From: Tribonema minus
Taxonomy: Eukaryota > Sar > Xanthophyceae > Tribonematales > Tribonemataceae
Reading direction: 5' to 3'
Assembly: GCA_017506865.1 (NCBI GenBank)
Contig: JAFCMP010000223.1
Coordinates: 434,001-498,000 of the forward strand
DNA length: 64,000 nucleotides
Within the stretch, counting starts at the first letter, position 1. Each line of letters starts with the position of its first letter. The position numbers and the translations under genes are program-made. Below, piece after piece: positions 12,746-45,956 of the stretch. The notes below the pieces were generated by a model, which ran no database searches, was not told the origin of the DNA, and saw only the letters and a list, made by a program, of their open reading frames with translations.

Positions 12746-13735
12746 TCACGGCATCGAGCGCGCGTACCGCCACCCCAGCTCCTCGCAAATCTTGCGCCAT
12801 ATTGCATCTTGGTAGACGACTTTCTCCTTCGATTTCAGGAGCTTGAAGGCCCTGGCGATGTCGTGGTAGCCCAGCAGCTTCGCACATTGGGAAATCACGT
12901 ACGAGTACGACAGCATGTTGCTCCGCTCCTTCGGCTTGTGCTTCTCGAACGGCGCCTGGATCATGGCAAACATAACCACCAAGTTCTGCTCCTGCGTCTC
13001 GGTGAGCTCCGGCGGCTGATGGCCCGTCAGCAGCGTCCAGATGCGGGTGGAGTGGTTGTACAGGTGCGACAGCGACAACCGCTTCAGAACGTCGCGAACC
13101 TCGTCCTGCGAAACGTTCTTGAACGATGCATCGTCGTACACACGCTTGCGGAGCTCCGTCCTGATCGCCTCCAGTACGTCGTCTTCGATGGTCGTCGTCT
13201 CGCGCGCCGCAAACCGCTTCAGGTGGTCCCGGAAGTGGTTCGACCTCTTGTACAGATATGGCTGAAACACGCAGTTTGGGAATGCAGAAACACAGCAGCG
13301 AAAACAGGTTTGAGGGCAGGTTAGAGAAGATAACAGTGTCATAAGAGTTTGGCGCACGGTACAAACACATACCGTGTGCAGCGAGGTTCCCTCGCGAAAG
13401 GAGCGGTCTATGACGTTGAACGTTTGGGAATCGCCGCAGCGAGAGCAAGTCGCCGTCGCTTGTCTCGTGTCGATGACGCGCGGCCGATTGCACGGGTCAC
13501 AGAGGTGCGCGTCCGGTACGAAGTCATCGCGCCGCTGCTGCGCCTCTCTGCTGAGCATCTTGGACGGGGCAGAAACGCTGACGAAGGCTGCGATGTTCGG
13601 AGGTCGTGCTGCCAACTTCATGCGCTTTGCGAACCGTGCCGAAGGCAGCGCAGCGTCGAATGATTCCCATGCATCCTCCAGCACGATTTGAAACGGAAGC
13701 TCCACGCGAGCGCAGCAAGGTGGCGGCACTGCCAT
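12746..13735 (-). CDS. VLTF3-like late transcription factor, spliced (exons 13735-13373, 13261-12746)
   Basis: A hallmark gene of Nucleocytoviricota, the viral late transcription factor 3 type. Exon 1 (121 codons) holds a zinc ribbon with Cys79/Cys82 and Cys97/Cys100 (CDPCN ... CSRCGD). Exon 2 carries the conserved core: YLYKRSNHFRDHLKRF, LTGHQPPELTETQEQNLVVM, MLSYSYVISQCAKLLGYHD and LKSKEKVVYQDAIWRKICEE. The 111-bp intron (GTATGT ... TTTCAG, 13372-13262) has no in-frame stop, so unspliced RNA would give a 37-residue insert before the YLYKR motif. About 292 residues when spliced. The only earlier in-frame start is GTG. A GATAAAATATCAC element precedes ATG 13735. Confidence 0.85.
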   Translation of the reverse strand: MAVPPPCCARVELPFQIVLEDAWESFDAALPSARFAKRMKLAARPPNIAAFVSVSAPSKMLSREAQQRRDDFVPDAHLCDPCNRPRVIDTRQATATCSRCGDSQTFNVIDRSFREGTSLHTVCVCTVRQTLMTLLSSLTCPQTCFRCCVSAFPNCVFQPYLYKRSNHFRDHLKRFAARETTTIEDDVLEAIRTELRKRVYDDASFKNVSQDEVRDVLKRLSLSHLYNHSTRIWTLLTGHQPPELTETQEQNLVVMFAMIQAPFEKHKPKERSNMLSYSYVISQCAKLLGYHDIARAFKLLKSKEKVVYQDAIWRKICEELGWRYARSMP

Positions 13736-13796
13736 CTCCACAGTGTGGATGTCGTATACAGTGAGAGTGATATTTTATCAGATGACAAAAAAACGC

Positions 13797-15414: not shown

Positions 15415-16980
15415 ATGGGGGGCGCGGGCGCAGCGTCAGCATCGAACAAGTCAGCGAAGGCGGTGTTGAAGCGAGTGAAAACTTGCGCTTTCCTACCATG
15501 CTGCAACCCTGCCGTCCGCAAGTGGTGCCCAGCGCACAGTACGTTAAAGAAATGCATCGTAAATGGGTGCGGAAAGCGCCCTCATCACAACTACGTGGGC
15601 GCGGGATCCCGATACTGCACATCCCACAAGCTCCTAGGCATGGTTGATGACTACGGTTCACGGGAATGTGAGGAGCCCGGCTGCGCCACGAAACCATGCT
15701 TCGGACGGAAAAGAGGTCGACCGACGCATTGTAGAAAGCACAAGCATCTGGATATGGTTGACGTCAGCAACCCACAATGCGCGACAACAGGCTGCAGTAT
15801 TCAACCATCTTACGGGGAGGTCGGAGGTCGTGCAACATGCTGCAGCACACATAAACAACCCGACATGGTGAACGTCAAGGATCCGCAATGTGCGGCAACG
15901 GGCTGCAGCAAACAACCATGCTACGGGGAGGTCGGCGGCCGTGCAACATGCTGTGGTCCTCACAAACAACCCGGCATGGTCAACGTCGTGAGCCCACAAT
16001 GCTCAGCACCGGGATGTACGACCATACCTTGCTTCGGACAGGTCGGATGTCCTGCAACATGCTGCAGCACACATAAACAACTCGGCATGGTCAACGTTAA
16101 GGATCCGAAATGCGCAGCGCTGGGATGCATGACGTATCCATGCTTTGGAGACGTCGGTGGTCCCGCAACACATTGTGCCAGACACAGGCGACCCGGCGCC
16201 GTTAATGTTAGGGACCGGCAGTGCGAGTCGGATGGATGTACCACGCGCCCGTCCTTCGGAATTGAAGGGGAGCGCGCCACTCACTGCGGCGCGCACCGAC
16301 TGCCCGGCGCAGTTGATGTCGTGAATCGGAAGTGCGCGGCAGAGGAGTGCACCACGCAAGCGTGCTTCGGCGAAAGAGGTCACCGTGCGACACACTGCTT
16401 CACGCACAAAAGACCCGGGATGATCGATGTCGTCACCACATACTGCGAGCACGGACGCCAAGTGTGCCGTGGCGACATCTGCCGGGTCAACAATATCGGG
16501 CAGCGGTCGTTGGAGGAGATGTGGCCTGATGCAATTGTCTTCTTCGTTTGGAGCGGCGGCGACAACCTGGCGGGCTTCCTCGCCACCATCTCGCATCGTC
16601 TGCAGTTCGGGACCGTGCAGGTCCGCCCTGACGTCCTCGTGGGCACGCGCGCGTTCTTCCACGATGGCCTGTTCTGGCACAAGGACAAATCAGAGGCCGA
16701 TGCATTGCAGACGGCGGCGCTCGTCGACGCGGGCTACAGCGTGCTGCGGACACGCGACCGGTTACTGCCCATCCCACGCGCGGTCAACATCGCGGTCGAC
16801 ACGCGCAAGGGCTGCGAGGCGCTGTCACGAGAGGTGGCTCGAGAGCTCAGCGTGGGCGATGCGGCGTGGCCCGACCTGTGGCGGCGCGCCGACAGCCTCG
16901 CGCGCCGCGCCATCCTGTCGCTGTCGCAGCGATACGTGCAGAACAAGCAGAGCACGCTTGACGACTGGATCGTGGCATGA
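15415..16980 (+). CDS. EsV-1-7 repeat protein fused to PD-(D/E)XK (DUF559-like) nuclease
   Basis: 521 residues. Residues ~20-345 contain about nine Cys/His repeats of the form C-x4-C-x~14-C-x2-H (for example 'CAATGCSKQPCYGEVGGRAT' followed by C-C-x2-H). This is the EsV-1-7 repeat known from Ectocarpus virus EsV-1 and brown-algal developmental regulators. Residues ~360-520 look like a DUF559/Vsr-type nuclease: 'VRPDVLVG' supplies the Asp, 'FHDGLFWHKDKSEADALQTA' the core and 'AGYSVLRTRDRLLP' the last strand. The repeats probably bind nucleic acid or protein through zinc and the C-terminus may cut DNA. The fusion is what I see; the activity is inferred. Confidence 0.65.
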   Translation: MGGAGAASASNKSAKAVLKRVKTCAFLPCCNPAVRKWCPAHSTLKKCIVNGCGKRPHHNYVGAGSRYCTSHKLLGMVDDYGSRECEEPGCATKPCFGRKRGRPTHCRKHKHLDMVDVSNPQCATTGCSIQPSYGEVGGRATCCSTHKQPDMVNVKDPQCAATGCSKQPCYGEVGGRATCCGPHKQPGMVNVVSPQCSAPGCTTIPCFGQVGCPATCCSTHKQLGMVNVKDPKCAALGCMTYPCFGDVGGPATHCARHRRPGAVNVRDRQCESDGCTTRPSFGIEGERATHCGAHRLPGAVDVVNRKCAAEECTTQACFGERGHRATHCFTHKRPGMIDVVTTYCEHGRQVCRGDICRVNNIGQRSLEEMWPDAIVFFVWSGGDNLAGFLATISHRLQFGTVQVRPDVLVGTRAFFHDGLFWHKDKSEADALQTAALVDAGYSVLRTRDRLLPIPRAVNIAVDTRKGCEALSREVARELSVGDAAWPDLWRRADSLARRAILSLSQRYVQNKQSTLDDWIVA

Positions 16981-26950: not shown

Positions 26951-27113
26951 GCGACCTTCCACGTTGCCAGAATTGGATTTTGAAATGGGGTACGTGTAAG
27001 TGAACATGCAGATTCGCTGAATGACAAGAGGGCATACAATAACTGCTCTCCCAGCAGCGCGAACTGCTTTCGTGGTCTCACGTGCTTTGTTTTTTTCTCC
27101 CTTTGAGGAAAAG

Positions 27114-27890
27114 ATGCGCACCGTGCAGCTCGGCCTGCGCACTTACAATGCAAACATTTACGATCGAAGAATAAATGTTTGGGACGACACCAAGGAGCGC
27201 GCATCGGTCATGCCGGCACCCCCATCACACATTGTGAGGTATGATGAGAGCTACGAGCTCACTCGTCGCTTCGCGTCCACGGCGATCACGGTGGTCAATG
27301 AGGACACCATTGAAACCGGCATGTCCATGCCCGGCGCGCTTTGTCACAATTTTAGCGATATCTGCTTTGCAGGCGGCTACGTCGCGCAAGGCTCCTCTGC
27401 GCAGGAGGAATCCATCATGCGCAGGTCAAACTTTTGCAGCACCCTGCTTCAGTCGTTTTATCCACTGGGCGCTGAGGAAGGCGTGTACTCCCCCTGTGTA
27501 ACGTTCTTCAAACGAGGTGAGCGCGATGACTGGGCGCCCATGGAGCACGTGGACCTCGCATTCGCCTCGATTCCTGCCCTTAAACGGCCCTACTGCGTCG
27601 ATGACAGACTGCGTGACGAAGATGTACGAGTGTTTCGAAAGAAGGTGCGGCTCTTGATGCAGACTGCACACGAAATGGGTCACGCGAGCATCGTGACTGG
27701 CGCATGGGGCTGCGGTGCGTGGGGAATGCCCGCTCGACACGTCGCGGAAATCTTCAGAGACGAGCTCGCGGCGTGCGACGGGGCATTCGAGACCGTGTGC
27801 TTTGCCATCATCGAAGGCGGGGATAGCCATGAGCGACCTAGACACGCAAATCCCATTGCGGTCTTCAGGGAGGTTCTGTGTCCCGTGTGA
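27114..27890 (+). CDS. microbial-type poly(ADP-ribose) glycohydrolase (PARG)
   Basis: 258 residues. It matches the bacterial/viral PARG family: 'HNFSDICFAGGYVAQGSSAQ' followed by EES-x-MRRS (~residues 75-105). The two Glu of 'AQEES' are the catalytic signature, where the family has GA.AQEE. 'IVTGAWGCGAWGMPARHVAE' (~200-220) is the other conserved block. It removes poly(ADP-ribose) from proteins, a modification used in DNA damage and antiviral signalling. It fits with the chromatin-acting genes nearby. The start follows an AAAGATG context; the upstream TTTTTTTCTCC stretch could be an acceptor. Confidence 0.75.
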   Translation: MRTVQLGLRTYNANIYDRRINVWDDTKERASVMPAPPSHIVRYDESYELTRRFASTAITVVNEDTIETGMSMPGALCHNFSDICFAGGYVAQGSSAQEESIMRRSNFCSTLLQSFYPLGAEEGVYSPCVTFFKRGERDDWAPMEHVDLAFASIPALKRPYCVDDRLRDEDVRVFRKKVRLLMQTAHEMGHASIVTGAWGCGAWGMPARHVAEIFRDELAACDGAFETVCFAIIEGGDSHERPRHANPIAVFREVLCPV

Positions 27891-30787: not shown

Positions 30788-30800
30788 AATATGTGATGTG

Positions 30801-31063: not shown

Positions 31064-32194
31064 ATGCCGCCGCGGACCGGGGGCCATGGCATTCGCCACC
31101 GAAAGGTGCTGCGTGACAACATCCTCGGAGTCACGAATGCTGCCATCCGGCGCCTCTGTCGCCGGGGCGGCGTCAAGCGCATATCAAAACTTGTGTACGA
31201 GGAGACTCGCGGCGTCCTCAAAGTGTTTCTGGAAGGCATCGTGCGCGACGCCGTCACTTACACGGAGCACGCGCGACGCAAGACCGTCACTTCGCTCGAC
31301 GTGGTACTCGCGCTTAAACGGCGCGGCCGGCCTCTGTACGGGTTCGGCGATGCCCCTGCTGCGAATCCGAAGAAGCGCAAGCCTCGACGCACGGGAAAGG
31401 TCGTGCTGTCCGCCGAGCGCGCTGCGGCAGTCGAGGCGGCCTTCGGCTCGCGTGCCAGGACCATCGCGCACGGTAACGGCTGGATATTGAACCCGGAGGC
31501 ATTCGGTCGCCTGCGACCGAACGAGTGGCTCTCTGGTGATGTGATGACCGGTTACGCTACTCTGTTGAATGAGAGGGAGGCCAGGCGTCGTGCGGTCCAC
31601 CCTCGCAGGGGCCGGCGTCACGTCTTCCACTCCTTCTTGTACAAAGGGATGTGCGATAACGGGTACGAACGGGTCAAGAAGTGGTCGACGAAAGCGAAGG
31701 TGGACGTCTTCGCCTGCAGTCTCCTCGTATTTCTGTGCAATGTGAATAGGATCCACTGGACCGTCGTGGTGGCACGGATGGCGCAGCGTCGCTTGGAATA
31801 CTTCGACTCGCTCGGCGGAGATGGGTTAGCGGAGATGAACACGATCGAGAGCTACTTGCAGCGAGAGCACGCGGACAAGAAGAAGAGTCCGCTGCCGGGC
31901 GTGTGGACGAGGCGCTCGCACGGCACCAGCAGTCCTCAGCAGGCCAACGGCGTTGACTGCGGCGTCTTCGCCCTGACCGTCGCCGAGTACATCGTGGATG
32001 ATATGCCTTTCGACTTTCGACAGGACGATACGAGGGACATGACGCCAGCTCAGCGCGCCGTCGCCGTCGATGACATCCCCGGCTTCAGGTTGAAGATTGC
32101 GAATGCGCTGCTGGAGAACAGCTTACCGGTGGTCGTGAACGCCGCAGCTGGGAATGCGGCCGCGGAAGCCGACTCTGACATTGAAATACTTTGA
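31064..32194 (+). CDS. histone H4 - Ulp1/SENP cysteine protease fusion
   Basis: 376 residues. Residues 11-95 are a full H4 histone fold ([20 protein letters not shown] ... LYGFG). The H4 tail is replaced by a short [11 protein letters not shown] basic linker follows with an NLS-like PKKRKPRR (102-109). Residues ~150-330 are a C48/Ulp1-type protease with His231 ('IHWTVVV'), Asp248 ('LEYFDSLGG'), Gln292/293 and Cys299 ('[15 protein letters not shown]'). The last residues, SDIEIL after acidic positions, fit a SUMO-interacting motif. Expected role: cutting SUMO or a similar modifier from chromatin proteins while sitting in, or near, a nucleosome. The domains are clear; the chromatin role is inferred. 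Confidence 0.85.
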
Positions 32195-34575: not shown

Positions 34576-36048
34576 CTACATCCACTTGTGCAGCATGTCC
34601 TGTAGCTGCTGTGAGGTGAACGGCTTGCTGAGGTGGTCATTCATGCCAGAGGCCAGGCATTCTTCAACATCGTGAACGAATGCGCTCGCACTCACCGCCA
34701 CGATGGGAGTGGTAACCCCCATTTCTCGCAACTGTTTGGTGGCAGCGCAGCCTCCGAGCAGTGGCATTATCAAGTCCATTAAGGTCAACGATGCTGTGTG
34801 CCCGTCGGCAAAATACTGAATTGCTTCGAGACCGTCTATCGCGATTTCCGTTTGCACGCCCATGATCTTTAGCATGTGCTGCGCGATGGACCGGTTGACT
34901 TTTGAATCGTCGACGACCAGAACGATCTTATCGCCAAACCCGGCATGTGCCACGGCACGCTTTGGGGAAACCGCCAACTCTGTGATCTGCACTGGCACGG
35001 TAACGGTGAATGTAGATCCCCTGCCAACTTCAGTCAGACACGACAATGTGCCCTGCAGCAAGCCCACCAGCGACTTGCATATGCTCAGTCCGAGTCCGGT
35101 ACCGGTCGATAGTTCGAATGGTTCAAACAAGACCGCCATCTTGCTGTCGACGATTCCGGTGCCGGTGTCGCTCACCACAATGTGCAGCTCGCTACTTCCC
35201 TGCATCGTGTATACCACATTCACTCCGCCTCTCTTCGTGTACTTGATCGCGTTGATGACCAGGTTCACTATCACCTGCCGGAGGCGGGGAGCGTCAGTCG
35301 CCACCGCTAAAGATGACATCAGTGAGCTCGTGGTCGTCGTCAGGCTCAGCCCTTTCCGTTCTGCAATGACGGCCATGGTGGCGTGGATGTCATGTGCGAA
35401 GTCGTGCACATCGATGTCGTGTTTCTGCAAGACCATTTTTCCTGCGCTAATTTTCGACATGTCCAAAACGTCATTGACTATGTGCATCAACGAGTCCGCG
35501 CACTGCTTCAAACCTTTCAGGCACGCTCGATGTTTCTCCTCTACTACCATGTTATCCAAAATGTCGACCCACCCCACCACCCCGTGCAATGGTGTGCGTA
35601 TTTCGTGCGACATGGCCGCCAAGAACGAACTCTTCGCAAGTGTCGACGCGAGCGCGACCTCTTGCGCCTCTCGCAGCTGCAATTGCTCTGTGACATCGCG
35701 CACGATAGCTATCGTATGCATGTATCCTCCTACGGAAAGCGGGCTCAACGACACTTCCACATGCATTTCCGACCCGTCCTTCTTGCGTGCTATCAATTCG
35801 GTACCGCGCACTCCCATCCTGCGCGTCGTGGGAGCATCTGCGTAAGCGAGCCTATGCTGCAAGTGTCGGCTCCTCATGCGCGTAGGGATGAGCATCTCCA
35901 TCTTTTCAGAAAACATCTCTTCCTTGCTGTACTGGAACAGAACCTCCATCTGCGTATTCGTCATCACGATCACCCCTTCGGCATCGACAAGCAAGATGCC
36001 ATCCGGAGCGGCGTCGATCACAGCGCAGAGCGAAGAGTCATGTAGCAT
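34576..36048 (-). CDS. hybrid histidine kinase (PAS-HisKA-HATPase-REC)
   Basis: 490 residues. PAS domain ~5-122 ('VIDAAPDGILLVDAEGVIV'). HisKA with phosphoacceptor His148 in 'AAMSHEIRTPLHG'. HATPase ~245-360 with N-box 'VIVNLVINAIKYTKRG', G1 'VSDTGTGI' and G2 'GTGLGLSICKSL'. Receiver ~373-488 with acidic pocket 'VVDDSKVNR', phosphoacceptor Asp425 ('LTLMDLIMP') and Lys475 ('LSKPF'). All key residues are present, so it should autophosphorylate and relay to its own receiver. No membrane segments: a soluble sensor. Brown-algal phaeoviruses also carry hybrid histidine kinases. No separate phosphotransfer protein is seen here. Confidence 0.9.
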   Translation of the reverse strand: MLHDSSLCAVIDAAPDGILLVDAEGVIVMTNTQMEVLFQYSKEEMFSEKMEMLIPTRMRSRHLQHRLAYADAPTTRRMGVRGTELIARKKDGSEMHVEVSLSPLSVGGYMHTIAIVRDVTEQLQLREAQEVALASTLAKSSFLAAMSHEIRTPLHGVVGWVDILDNMVVEEKHRACLKGLKQCADSLMHIVNDVLDMSKISAGKMVLQKHDIDVHDFAHDIHATMAVIAERKGLSLTTTTSSLMSSLAVATDAPRLRQVIVNLVINAIKYTKRGGVNVVYTMQGSSELHIVVSDTGTGIVDSKMAVLFEPFELSTGTGLGLSICKSLVGLLQGTLSCLTEVGRGSTFTVTVPVQITELAVSPKRAVAHAGFGDKIVLVVDDSKVNRSIAQHMLKIMGVQTEIAIDGLEAIQYFADGHTASLTLMDLIMPLLGGCAATKQLREMGVTTPIVAVSASAFVHDVEECLASGMNDHLSKPFTSQQLQDMLHKWM

Positions 36049-38389: not shown

Positions 38390-39724
<1,335 letters not shown>

Positions 39725-41696: not shown

Positions 41697-44600
41697 CTAT
41701 TGAATTACTATAGTAACAACCTGTCCATCCAGATTGAAGGTATCGCCCTGTGAATAGATTGTTCCGCCAATGCTGACAGTGTCGTCTTCATGGAAGACAA
41801 CACTCGCGGAAGACCCATCCCTCAGCAGCAGAGTCGCGGTCTGGTCCTCCGAGATGTCCTTATCAAACGGTATGTACACTCGATCGTTGGGTGTGATGGT
41901 CATGGTCCCGGATGTCCTCAAGAACCGGGCAGTAACCGTTGCTCCGGTGCCCTTGATCTCTGTTGACACCTCGACCTTGTCGCCTGTTGCAAAAATCGAG
42001 TCAATGATGGTCGGTGTGAGGGCCCCCGCATTCTGCGTGATGGAGCTCAGTGCGTATGTATCGGACGACGCGTTCTTGAGGAATGCCGCCTTGGGAATGT
42101 TTTCAATGTGTTCTGCAGCAGGCAGCTGCACAGTGCCTGTGCTCCAGGTGGAGGTGACACCACTGACCTTTGCCAGCACTACCACAGCGTAAACACCATC
42201 TGGCGACAGCCCCGGTATGAGCACTGACACTTGTGATGTGGCGGATATGAACTCGATGATGTCTAGGTCCACGTCTCTACGGTACTGCACCTTATAGCTC
42301 TCAGCTGTGGCGAGTGCTGTCCATGATACCTGCATGCTGAAGGGGGTGGTGGCAAAAGTGATGGCGCCTTGCACTGGTTGGGTGATGACAAAAATGAATG
42401 TCGCAGAGGCGCCGACTCCATCGCCCATACTCAGCACGTACGTGCCAGCAGCCAGCCCCGTCTTCGTTGAGTTGGTGGAGGGATTGGCGATCCCGGTGCC
42501 GCTCCAGGAATACGTGTAGCCAGATCCCGACCCACCAGAGGGGGTCAGAGAAGCGATCTCTCCCGTTTTGCCCCCGTAGGTTGCGGCCGGTGTGATCTCG
42601 CCACCAGAGTACGATAACACAGGGTTCTGAGCGATAGTGAAGCTCTTCGCCTTCGCCCCACCGACGCTATCAATTACAGTCAGAGTGTAGGTGCCCGCCG
42701 AAAGCCCTGTCTTCGTTGCGTTTACCGTCGGATTAGGCACTCCAGCACTCCAGGAGTATGTGTATCCTGTTCCGGACCCTCCAGACGGCGTCACAGATGC
42801 GATAGCACCAGTGCTCTGCCCATAGATGACGACATCCGTGATGGTGCCTCCGCTGACCGTGATCACTGGGTTCTCTGCAATTATGTAGTTCGTGACCTTT
42901 TCTGCAGCGACGCTGTCAGTCACAGTGAGAGTGTAAGTGCCTGCCGACAGCCCAGTCTTCGCGCCGTTCACCGTTGGGCTACTCACGCCAGCACTCCAGG
43001 AGTATGTGTAGCCGGTTCCCGACCCGCCAGACGGCGTCACAGATGCAATCGCGCCTGTGCTCTGCCCATTGACCAGGACGTTCGTAATGGTTCCTCCGCT
43101 GATGGTGATAACGGGATTCTCCGTGATGGTGCAGGAAGCAGTCTTGGTGGCCCCCACGCTGTCAGTGATGACACACGAGTAACTACCTGCCTTCATCCCA
43201 GTTTTCGAGACGTTGACAGTCGGGCTGGTCACAGCGTACGTCCCCGTCCAGCTGTATGTGTACCCCGTGCCGCTTCCACCAGCCGGAACCAGCGCAGTGA
43301 TCTGGCCAGTCTCTCCTCCGTTAATGAGTACGTTGGTGACTACACCTCCTGTGTAGGTAATGACGACGTTCTCCGTGATGGCGAATGACGCCGTGTTGGT
43401 GGCCCCCACACTGTCCGTGATGACGCACGAGTAGCTGCCCGCTTTCATGCCAGTCTTGGTCTCATTGACGGTTGGGTTCGTGACGGCATATGTCCCTGTC
43501 CAGCTGTAAGTGTACCCCGTGCCGCTTCCGCCGGCCGGTACCAGCGCGGTGATCTGGCCCGTTGAACCTCCGTTTATGAGGACGCTCGTAACAGCGCCGC
43601 CCGTATACGTGATGACCGGGTTCTCCGCGATGGTCGCCGAGACGGTCTTCGTCGCTCCCACACTGTCCGTGATGACGCACGAGTAGCTGCCCGCTTTCAT
43701 GCCAGTCTTGGTCTCATTGACGGTTGGGTTCGTGACGGCATATGTCCCTGTCCAGCTGTAAGTGTACCCCGTGCCGCTTCCGCCGGCCGGTACCAGCGCG
43801 GTGATCTGGCCCGTTGAACCTCCGTTTATGAGGACGCTCGTAACAGCGCCGCCCGTATACGTGATGACAGAATTCTCCGCGATGGTCGCCGAGACGGTCT
43901 TCGTCGCTCCCACACTGTCCGTGATGACGCACGAGTAGCTGCCCGCTTTCATGCCAGTCTTGGTCTCATTGACGGTTGGGTTCGTGACGGCATATGTCCC
44001 CGTCCAGCTGTAAGTGTACTCCGTGCCACTTCCGCCAGCCGGAACCAGGGCCGTGATCTGGCCCGTGGATCCTCCGTTTATGAGGACGCTCGTAACAGCG
44101 CCACCCGTGTACGTGATGACAGAATTCTCCGCGATGGTCACTGAGACGGTCTTCGTCGCTCCCACACTGTCCGTGATGACGCACGAGTAACTTCCCGCTT
44201 TCATTCCAGTCTTGGTAGCGTTGACCGTGGGACTGGATACCGCGTACGTCCCTGTCCAGCTATATGTGTAACCGGTTCCGCTGCCGCCCGCCGGCACCAG
44301 AGCCGTCATCTGGCCGGTGGATCCCCCGTTGATGAGAACATCCGTAGCAACGCCGCCCGTGTACGTGATAACGGAATTCTCTGTGATGGCGAAGGACGCC
44401 GTCTTGGTGGCGCCGGCGCTGTCCGTGATGACGCACGAGTAAGATCCCGCTTTCATGGAGGTCTTGGTGGCATTGACGGTTGGGCTGGTCACCGTGTACG
44501 TCCCGGTCCAGCTGTAAGTGTAACCCGTGCCAGTTCCCCCAGAAGGCACGAGAGCAGTGATCTGCCCAGTGGACCCCCCGTTGATGAGCACATTGGTGAC

Positions 44601-45956
44601 TGTGCCTCCCGTGTAGGTGATGACTGCATTCTCTGTTATGGTGAACGACGCCGTCTTGGTGGCGCCGGCGCTGTCCGTGATGATGCACGAGTAAGACCCC
44701 GCTTTCATGGAGGTCTTGGTGGCGTTGACAGTTGGGCTGGTAACCGCGTACGTCCCGGTCCAGCTGTAAGTGTAGGTGCCAGTTCCCCCCGAAGGCACGA
44801 GAGCCGTGATCTGCCCGGTGGAACCCCCATTAATGAGGACGCTGGTGACTGTGCCTCCTGTGTACGTGATGACCGCGTTTTCTGTGATAGTGAATGCCGC
44901 TGACTTGGTGTTACCCACGCTGTCCGATATTACACATGTATAAGTGCCGGCCTTCATACCCGTCTTGGTCGCGTTGACGGTGGGACTGGTCACAGCATAC
45001 GTCCCCGTCCAGCTGTACGTGTATGTACCGCTGCCACCGGATGGTACGAGAGCGGTGATTTGACCAGTGGCTCCCCCGTTTATGAGCACGTTTGTAACTG
45101 CCCCTCCAGTGTACGTAATTGGAGAAATAGTAAATGAGGGCACGGTAACGGTAGCACCTGTGTAGTCAATGATGGTAAGAGTGTACGAACCGGATGATAG
45201 GCTTGTACGCGTAGACACGCTGGACACATAGGCATCTGACCAGCTGTATGTGTAGTACGTGCCACCGGACGGCGTCGTTGCCGAGATGCTGGTTCCCGAC
45301 ACGGTACCCGCGGCGTACCCCAGCGTCGGTAGCGATGAGCGGTACGGGCTGCTGACGATGCCAGAGAAGAACTGTATCATGGACACATCTATATTGGCTG
45401 GCGAGGAGGATCCGCGCGCCGAGTGATTGCACGACCATCCGACGCCTGACGTCATGGTGCCGCTTGGTAGCGTGAATGTTCCGACGGAGGTGCCGTTCTT
45501 AAACGTGTTCACGGTGTGAGTCGTCGCGTCGTACTGGACCCACCAGTGGATCCACGTGGCAGTCGTCCAGGCATTGCTGCTTATCGTGATGTTGACGCGT
45601 GTCGAGTTGATCCAGAAGTGGGAGTACAAGCCGCCTGTGGTGTTGGCATAGTCGAGTTCGTACCCGATGTTTGACGCGTTGCAGTTTGATATGGGGTAGG
45701 CCTCCGGCACATTGGTCAAGTCGCGCAGGTTGAACCACCCGCCGTATGATCGGCTTGTGCCGTACACAAACTCAAGCGCAGACGAGAAGCTGAACTGCAG
45801 GTACTGTGTCGTGCTGAGTCTGAGCGCAGAGTTGGACGTTCCGAACGGACCAGTCGTATATGTCGCGGAGCCCGAGCTGAGTGCAGCTGTGACACCAGCC
45901 GACCCTGTGGTCGACAAGTTCCCAGTGCAGGTGGCGCTCGCGGTCACCGACGACAT
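41697..45956 (-). CDS. giant adhesin: lectin-like domain, ~12 SprB-type repeats, FN3, terminal beta domain
   Basis: 1419 residues. N-terminal ~235: LamG/ConA-like lectin pattern ('GFNLRDLTNV'-type segment, 'WIHWWVQYDATTHTVNTFKN', 'VSMIQFFSGIV'). Residues ~236-1185: about twelve ~84-residue repeats ('VLINGGSTGQITALVPSGG', then YSWTGTYAV, 'GMKAGSYSCVITDS'), matching the SprB repeat of Bacteroidetes gliding adhesins. Then FN3 ('MQVSWTALATAESYKVQYRR') and a C-terminal beta domain shared with the protein at 14085. It probably forms a long virion fibre that binds host glycans. No signal peptide visible. Confidence 0.75.
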   Translation of the reverse strand: MSSVTASATCTGNLSTTGSAGVTAALSSGSATYTTGPFGTSNSALRLSTTQYLQFSFSSALEFVYGTSRSYGGWFNLRDLTNVPEAYPISNCNASNIGYELDYANTTGGLYSHFWINSTRVNITISSNAWTTATWIHWWVQYDATTHTVNTFKNGTSVGTFTLPSGTMTSGVGWSCNHSARGSSSPANIDVSMIQFFSGIVSSPYRSSLPTLGYAAGTVSGTSISATTPSGGTYYTYSWSDAYVSSVSTRTSLSSGSYTLTIIDYTGATVTVPSFTISPITYTGGAVTNVLINGGATGQITALVPSGGSGTYTYSWTGTYAVTSPTVNATKTGMKAGTYTCVISDSVGNTKSAAFTITENAVITYTGGTVTSVLINGGSTGQITALVPSGGTGTYTYSWTGTYAVTSPTVNATKTSMKAGSYSCIITDSAGATKTASFTITENAVITYTGGTVTNVLINGGSTGQITALVPSGGTGTGYTYSWTGTYTVTSPTVNATKTSMKAGSYSCVITDSAGATKTASFAITENSVITYTGGVATDVLINGGSTGQMTALVPAGGSGTGYTYSWTGTYAVSSPTVNATKTGMKAGSYSCVITDSVGATKTVSVTIAENSVITYTGGAVTSVLINGGSTGQITALVPAGGSGTEYTYSWTGTYAVTNPTVNETKTGMKAGSYSCVITDSVGATKTVSATIAENSVITYTGGAVTSVLINGGSTGQITALVPAGGSGTGYTYSWTGTYAVTNPTVNETKTGMKAGSYSCVITDSVGATKTVSATIAENPVITYTGGAVTSVLINGGSTGQITALVPAGGSGTGYTYSWTGTYAVTNPTVNETKTGMKAGSYSCVITDSVGATNTASFAITENVVITYTGGVVTNVLINGGETGQITALVPAGGSGTGYTYSWTGTYAVTSPTVNVSKTGMKAGSYSCVITDSVGATKTASCTITENPVITISGGTITNVLVNGQSTGAIASVTPSGGSGTGYTYSWSAGVSSPTVNGAKTGLSAGTYTLTVTDSVAAEKVTNYIIAENPVITVSGGTITDVVIYGQSTGAIASVTPSGGSGTGYTYSWSAGVPNPTVNATKTGLSAGTYTLTVIDSVGGAKAKSFTIAQNPVLSYSGGEITPAATYGGKTGEIASLTPSGGSGSGYTYSWSGTGIANPSTNSTKTGLAAGTYVLSMGDGVGASATFIFVITQPVQGAITFATTPFSMQVSWTALATAESYKVQYRRDVDLDIIEFISATSQVSVLIPGLSPDGVYAVVVLAKVSGVTSTWSTGTVQLPAAEHIENIPKAAFLKNASSDTYALSSITQNAGALTPTIIDSIFATGDKVEVSTEIKGTGATVTARFLRTSGTMTITPNDRVYIPFDKDISEDQTATLLLRDGSSASVVFHEDDTVSIGGTIYSQGDTFNLDGQVVTIVIQ
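42600..45110 (-). repeat. ~252-bp tandem repeats coding for SprB-type units
   Basis: Successive units keep a 246-255-bp period. Three in a row (about 43462, 43714, 43966) are nearly identical at DNA level, which means recent duplication or gene conversion; outer units are more diverged. Confidence 0.85.

Follow-up and report, generated by a model that had tools for sequence, protein, structure and literature searches.

A single gene of Tribonema minus is firmly predicted to encode histone H4 fused to a Ulp1/SENP-type (C48) protease. The earlier note on this DNA had read an H4 and a SUMO-type protease in one frame, and this reading was borne out, as both domains could be matched within the 376-aa product (Table 1). 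The gene lies in the 64,000-nucleotide stretch that we analysed, hereafter the window (C223:434001-498000; contig C223 is 2.1 Mb long and belongs to an assembly of 158 Mb and 554 contigs). Its first codon, at 31064, is the sole in-frame ATG between the upstream stop and the histone, the frame opening at 30797. A chance reading frame as the origin of the gene is ruled out by the E-values of the domains together with the pattern of substitutions between its two copies.

Table 1. Coordinates of the H4-C48 fusion, neighbouring genes of the window and other histone genes of the assembly (window positions unless a locus label is given)
Feature	Position	Strand	Basis or remark
H4-C48 (Ulp1/SENP-type) protease fusion gene	31064..32194	+	376 aa plus stop, single frame (translation)
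H4 domain, shortened tail, residues 11-97	31094..31354	+	phmmer and alignment
Basic NLS-like linker, residues about 101-112, with KKRK (at 103)	31364..31399	+	motif only
Peptidase_C48 catalytic domain, residues 155-335	31526..32068	+	PF02902 2.5e-18; SENP1 profile alignment
Catalytic codon, His231	31754-31756	+	profile alignment, spacing
Catalytic codon, Asp248	31805-31807	+	profile alignment, spacing
Catalytic codon, Gln293	31940-31942	+	profile alignment, spacing
Catalytic codon, Cys299	31958-31960	+	profile alignment, spacing
Terminal SDIEIL, residues 371-376	32174..32191	+	motif match only; fits SUMO-interacting motif
VLTF3-like late transcription factor, NCLDV hallmark	12746..13741	-	PF04947 3.2e-42
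PARG-like poly(ADP-ribose) glycohydrolase	27021..27890	+	PF10021 3.5e-10; about 3.2 kb upstream of fusion
H4-kinase-like fusion: near-canonical H4, proline-rich linker, divergent domain with HGDxxPxN	38417..39724	+	435 aa
Second H4-C48 type, long linker (C112)	L014:3706-5190	-	495 aa; tail keeps K12, K16
H3-C48 (C223:1.009 Mb)	L020:4004-5827	-	608 aa; histone 8.8e-45, C48 5.9e-25
H4, proline-rich linker, second domain (C445)	L013:4641-5948	+	
H4, proline-rich linker, second domain (C181)	L016:4493-5770	+	
H4, proline-rich linker, second domain (C223:679 kb)	L017:4493-5782	+	
H3 with long glycine-rich, basic, low-complexity tail (C223:809 kb)	L021:4049-5314	+	adjoins VLTF3
H2B-H2A doublet, giant-virus type (C112)	L022:3418-4224	+	

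Domains of the fusion protein

The N-terminal part matched a solved H4 chain by phmmer at 5.5e-41 over residues 7-102. The complete H4 fold that had been placed at residues 11-95 is thus upheld, with H4 spanning about residues 7-97, and 70 of the 85 aligned core residues (82%) are identical to those of the canonical H4 found in this assembly. HMMER searches against Pfam, which the earlier note had proposed for both domains, gave a divided result: Peptidase_C48 scored 67.1 bits against a gathering score of 20.7, but PF00125 reached only 21.4 bits where its cut-off is 26.4. As PF00125 (E <= 0.001) also fails on canonical H4 places of this assembly (C57, C536:576366 and C4:511713), its low score on the fusion tells little. 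Pfam also matched generic histone-fold families at the N-terminus, of which CENP-T_C (28.7 vs 28.1 bits) and CBFD_NFYB_HMF (22.9 vs 21.4 bits) exceeded their cut-offs.

For the protease part, we used a profile (A2) built from five C48 domains, namely those of the window, C9, C112 and H3-C48 fusions and that of the protein P0122. This profile matched SENP1 at 2.2e-44, SENP2 at 8.3e-38 and Ulp1 at 5.3e-27, and SENP8 and pathogen CE proteases scored far below SENP1/2. The four catalytic columns (His, Asp, Gln, Cys) align with those of SENP1 in the profile search, which confirms the C48/Ulp1-type assignment and puts the proposed His231, Asp248 and Cys299 in SENP register; where Gln292 and Gln293 had both been offered, we take Gln293 (Cys minus 6) as the SENP-type glutamine, following the SENP1 numbering. 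The C9, C112 and H3 fusions have a spacing of 17 from H to D, and of 6 from Q to C within one residue. Because C48-type enzymes also cleave ubiquitin-like tags other than SUMO, the SUMO substrate is assigned by similarity. A PF11976 search of the assembly recognised no SUMO gene, its best places being tandem arrays that resemble polyubiquitin.

An AlphaFold model of the fusion was computed from a two-sequence alignment, multi-H4 proteins having been left out because their repeated H4s would overlie the protease. The mean pLDDT of this model is 42.5, with values of 28-44 in the histone part and 71-85 at residues 241-280. Searched with this low-confidence model, Foldseek placed SENP2/SENP1 structures first (top five 1.2e-9 to 9.0e-9). 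Its matches also include two histone chains (5.5e-4 and 8.4e-4), which we take to be H4 because they are 71-73% identical, and, weakly, two poxvirus core protease structures (5.9e-4 and 7.0e-4). The protease core that the earlier note had taken to be intact is so by sequence; the model itself is poor, though SENP2/SENP1 come first among its matches, and the SENP-like fold of this part is predicted mainly from sequence homology.

The basic NLS-like linker is present as described, by motif match, and its letters are identical in the C9 copy. The terminal SDIEIL likewise stands where it had been noted and fits a SUMO-interacting motif, but it is weak evidence for one, as the loose pattern occurs in 13 of the 78 window ATG frames of at least 150 aa (fusion included). 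Within the last 12 residues the same pattern is found in one frame of the 78, that of the H4-C48 fusion. The C9 copy ends in SDLEIL, and a terminal motif of this kind is absent from the C112 H4-C48 and from H3-C48.

A second copy with a pattern of purifying selection

The H4-C48 fusion occurs again on contig C9 of the same assembly, with 91% protein identity. The two copies differ by 112 substitutions and no indels over 1128 nt, and the differences fall on the three codon positions as 26/21/65 (chi-square p 1.8e-7). For the whole fusion dN/dS is 0.057/0.281; the H4 part gives 0.010/0.135 (about 0.07) and the C48 part 0.070/0.384 (about 0.18). The values for the linker, 0.125/0.457 (about 0.27), and for the C-terminus, 0.025/0.080, are provisional estimates derived from 9 residue differences in 53 and 2 in 36, respectively. 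The substitution pattern between the two copies is one of purifying selection. This selection may predate integration, and the element may be inert today.

Across 20 kb, C9 follows the window in the same order, in long blocks of 92-96% DNA identity and one shorter block of 83%, with some stretches unaligned. Mis-assembly, which the earlier note had named as a way in which the fusion might prove false, is unlikely given that the same junction recurs on C9 and that two further fusions, H3-C48 and the H4-C48 of C112, stand separately at other loci. The divergence between the window and C9 is uneven: dS is 0.281 for the H4-C48 pair and 0.030 for the H4-kinase-like pair (dN/dS 0.008/0.030).

Genomic setting

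The window apparently belongs to a eukaryote assembly and not to a virus bin, judging by the size of the assembly and by the canonical H3 and H4 genes in it, and we infer that it is endogenous giant-virus DNA. VLTF3 was found at 8 places in the assembly and the NCLDV capsid gene (PF04451) at 10, all ten of them outside the window. VLTF3 lies less than 25 kb from the fusions in the window, on C9 and on C445 (1.5 kb at C445), and no VLTF3 turned up within this distance of the fusions at C112, C181, C490, C223:679 kb and C223:1.009 Mb. The GC content of the window is 0.54-0.61 in 2-kb steps, compared with 0.50 in the surroundings of the C112 fusion and 0.68 in those of H3-C48; given these differences between fusion loci, several viruses are possibly involved. 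Canonical-type H3/H4 genes are present on C223 at 524-533 kb, where the H4 has a different end.

The PARG-like gene upstream of the fusion is a possible second eraser of chromatin modification. Elsewhere in the window, positions 15415-16980 (+) encode EsV-1-7 cysteine-rich repeats (8 stretches, 3e-80) ahead of a long, unassigned C-terminal part, positions 34576-36048 (-) a hybrid histidine kinase with PAS, HisKA, ATPase and receiver domains, and positions 41697-45956 (-) a 1419-aa protein with SprB repeats.

Other histone fusions in the assembly

At E <= 1e-20, 24 places in the assembly match the H4 part. Nine of these lie in frames longer than 400 aa, eight of which have no internal stop: H4-C48 fusions in the window, on C9 and on C112; H4-kinase-like fusions in the window and on C9; and H4 joined to a second kind of domain on C445, C181 and C223:679 kb. 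At C490:163 kb (L015) the H4 ends in TGA and the same second domain follows in frame, which may be a broken fusion, a case of readthrough or an unfused pair.

The H4-kinase-like protein of the window retains 81 of 85 core residues of the assembly's canonical H4, its histone fold being matched by CENP-T_C at 6.9e-8, and its C9 copy is identical at 428 of 435 residues. The partner domain is divergent: Pkinase matched the protein at 0.0064 with 16.3 bits (17.0 for the C-terminal part), under its gathering score of 31.7, NCBIfam kinase and phosphotransferase models fell far under their cut-offs, and against the PDB only weak kinase matches were found, the best at 0.04. Folded alone, the protein gave a mean pLDDT of 40.1, and this model was left aside. 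The second partner domain has a conserved His-17-Glu and Gln-6-Cys spacing that copies the spacing of C48, and it matched no Pfam family, no NCBIfam model and, in the PDB, nothing beyond chance. Kinship of this domain with clan CE was considered; the spacing fits, but the hhalign probability is only 0.2 out of 100, and we keep the idea as a hypothesis.

Of the 22 PF02902 places in the assembly, four are fused to a histone. No histone was found by eye in nine non-fused PF02902 frames (C21:70638 and eight more), and the other nine places had no histone match on their contigs. Apart from the C9 copy, the closest C48 to the window protease is the 3′ piece of the gene at C21:70.6 kb (L019; 47% over 135 aa); this gene is broken by an in-frame TAG inside C48, and an HMG box suspected by eye before it was rejected, as it had no Pfam support and only a chance PDB match. 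On a common origin of the histone-C48 fusions the trees give no single answer: the histone-fused domains do not group in a 13-row tree of C48 (172 of 500 shuffles as low), and in a 19-row tree of H4 the eight from fusions do cluster (2 of 500 as low, near-copies included).

The histone tails differ among these fusions. The earlier note had reported the tail lysines of the window H4 as gone, which holds for K5, K8, K12 and K16 but not for the equivalent of K20 (K14 here), which is kept; the C9 copy has the same pattern. The accompanying suggestion that such an H4 would be deaf to tail acetylation holds for this pair, but it does not extend to the H4-kinase-like fusion, which has Arg at K5 and keeps K8, K12 and K16, or to the C112 fusion, which keeps only K12 and K16 of those four. 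In the tail of H3-C48, Arg replaces K4, Ala replaces K27 and K9 is kept, and the long-tailed H3 at C223:809 kb has Arg at K9. Loss of acceptor lysines among the histone fusions is frequent, not uniform.

Search for relatives

With the whole fusion as query, the protein matches were histones, and none of the best 120 of 2250 carries PF02902 in its Pfam column. The C48 part gave one protein among the matches listed, P0122, a C48 protein of 575 aa for which the Pfam column shows no histone domain, and the C48 of the H3 fusion gave none among 542 protein candidates at E <= 0.001. No relative was found in the viral contig scans or among the INPHARED phages; the viral contig scans also missed VLTF3, a common NCLDV gene, and are accordingly weak evidence of absence. 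Giant-virus histone fusions with SUMO or cysteine proteases are not described in the literature searched, which was available in part and lies mostly outside subscription journals and preprints. In their available portions, PMC11244446 reports viral insertions of Amoebidium without histones and PMC12993054 contains neither the word "fusion" nor the word "SUMO". The statement that no histone-deSUMOylase fusion had been described agrees with the protein, viral and literature searches, within their limited reach. Viral histones with recognisable enzymes appear to be new, within the known class of viral histone fusions.

Possible roles of the fusion

We consider it somewhat more probable than an even chance that the fusion is a histone that would deliver a deSUMOylase into nucleosomes, keeping viral, and perhaps host, chromatin free of repressive SUMO; its activity, its substrate and its incorporation into nucleosomes are all predicted from sequence. 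Under this explanation an H4 acquired by the virus would bring its own SUMO protease. The H4 part would pair with H3, either host or viral, and the fusion would enter the nucleosomes of the viral genome and perhaps also those of the host. The protease would thereby be placed where histones and silencing factors receive SUMO, and by removing SUMO there it would protect the activity of the viral template from SUMO-dependent repression, with the terminal segment possibly holding SUMO near the enzyme.

Several observations are consistent with this sequence of events. The H4 core, with its 70/85 identity to canonical H4, is closer to it than are viral histone doublets (22-48% in the available text of PMC9145170), which favours a fit with eukaryotic H3 and its chaperones. 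The missing K12, a SUMO and acetyl acceptor in H4, would fit a subunit that cannot itself be marked; sumoylation of H4 K12 blocks p300 acetylation and transcription in vitro, according to the available part of PMC8626089. Herpesviruses are described, in sources likewise available in part, as counteracting SUMO-dependent intrinsic defence. The presence of predicted C48 domains behind a different H4 on C112 and behind H3 also supports the deSUMOylase-histone reading, as do the complete domains with their active-site residues, the substitution pattern between the copies, the VLTF3 gene of the window and the nearness of the protease to SENP1/2 in profile and Foldseek searches. Counting against it are the low confidence of the model, a terminal motif that is short and missing from the C112 and H3 fusions, the lack of a recognised SUMO gene in the assembly and of a capsid gene in the window, and the uneven dS of the two gene pairs.

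Other explanations have to be weighed against this one. The histone could anchor the protease on packaged viral DNA, where it would trim core proteins during assembly. The adenovirus protease trims core proteins on DNA, and the core proteases of adenoviruses and poxviruses belong to the same clan as C48. The weak Foldseek matches to poxvirus core proteases would fit such a maturation role, as would the three further H4 fusions whose partner copies the C48 spacing; we nevertheless judge it quite unlikely, as the C48 domain is clearly nearest SENP1/2 and the hhalign result lends the second domain no kinship with C48. It is unlikely as well, to a slightly lesser degree, that the fusion is directed against the host, disturbing transcription or repair from within host nucleosomes, where it would remove SUMO and lower the share of acetylatable H4, on the model of bracovirus H4. 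A host-like H4 core, the missing tail acceptor lysines and the nearby PARG-like gene would all suit this role, and bracovirus H4 has been recovered in host nucleosomes and alters host expression (PMC9145170, available in part). Some of the other fusions keep their tail lysines, however, and the sequence does not tell host from viral chromatin as the target.

One may also postulate that chance alone formed or preserved the fusion as the endogenous viral DNA around it decayed, and that its two parts never functioned jointly. The broken related loci (the TGA at C490 and the TAG inside C48 at C21) point in this direction, as does the near lack of relatives, with hardly any protein among the matches listed and none in the viral collections searched. 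We regard this as highly improbable, however, since both copies are intact and show a purifying pattern in the H4 and the C48 part alike, and since the design recurs on two different histones, with no fewer than two kinds of partner.

Most discussion of viral histones treats them as packaging proteins. If the histone studied here does deliver a deSUMOylase, viruses are able to build the control of chromatin into the nucleosome; the role of SUMO on viral chromatin would then become directly testable, and a histone-anchored eraser of chromatin SUMO would be a possible tool. A broader proposal, which we advance tentatively and hold at somewhat less than an even chance, is that a group of giant viruses assembles nucleosomes from core histones to which modification enzymes are attached. 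In that case H4 and H3 would serve as interchangeable tags for a deSUMOylase, a kinase-like protein and a second, perhaps protease-like, domain, and viral chromatin would edit itself wherever it forms. Since both H3 and H4 bear such additions, and the additions are of more than one kind, the design has the look of a reusable principle. We found no description of such enzyme-armed histones in the literature searched, which was available in part.

Comparison with known systems

The protease part resembles Ulp1/SENP enzymes (C48, PF02902; nearest SENP1/SENP2) in its catalytic domain, in the order and spacing of His, Asp, Gln and Cys, and in the HW and PQQxNGxDCG motifs; it differs from them in being joined to a histone, and its SUMO substrate is only predicted. 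On the histone side, the bracovirus H4 (CvBV-H4) is not known to have an enzyme domain and carries an added tail. It is otherwise comparable as a viral H4 near eukaryotic H4, and the bracovirus protein enters nucleosomes, as given in the available text of PMC9145170. The same text covers the histones of Nucleocytoviricota (marseillevirus doublets, medusavirus and clandestinovirus), with which the present gene shares a giant-virus setting and fused histone folds; here, however, the partner is a predicted enzyme, and the H4 core is of eukaryotic type (82%), not a deep-branching doublet. Finally, macroH2A, also treated in that part of PMC9145170, similarly combines a core histone with a large folded extra domain, although in that case a macro domain is borne on H2A in animals and no protease is involved.
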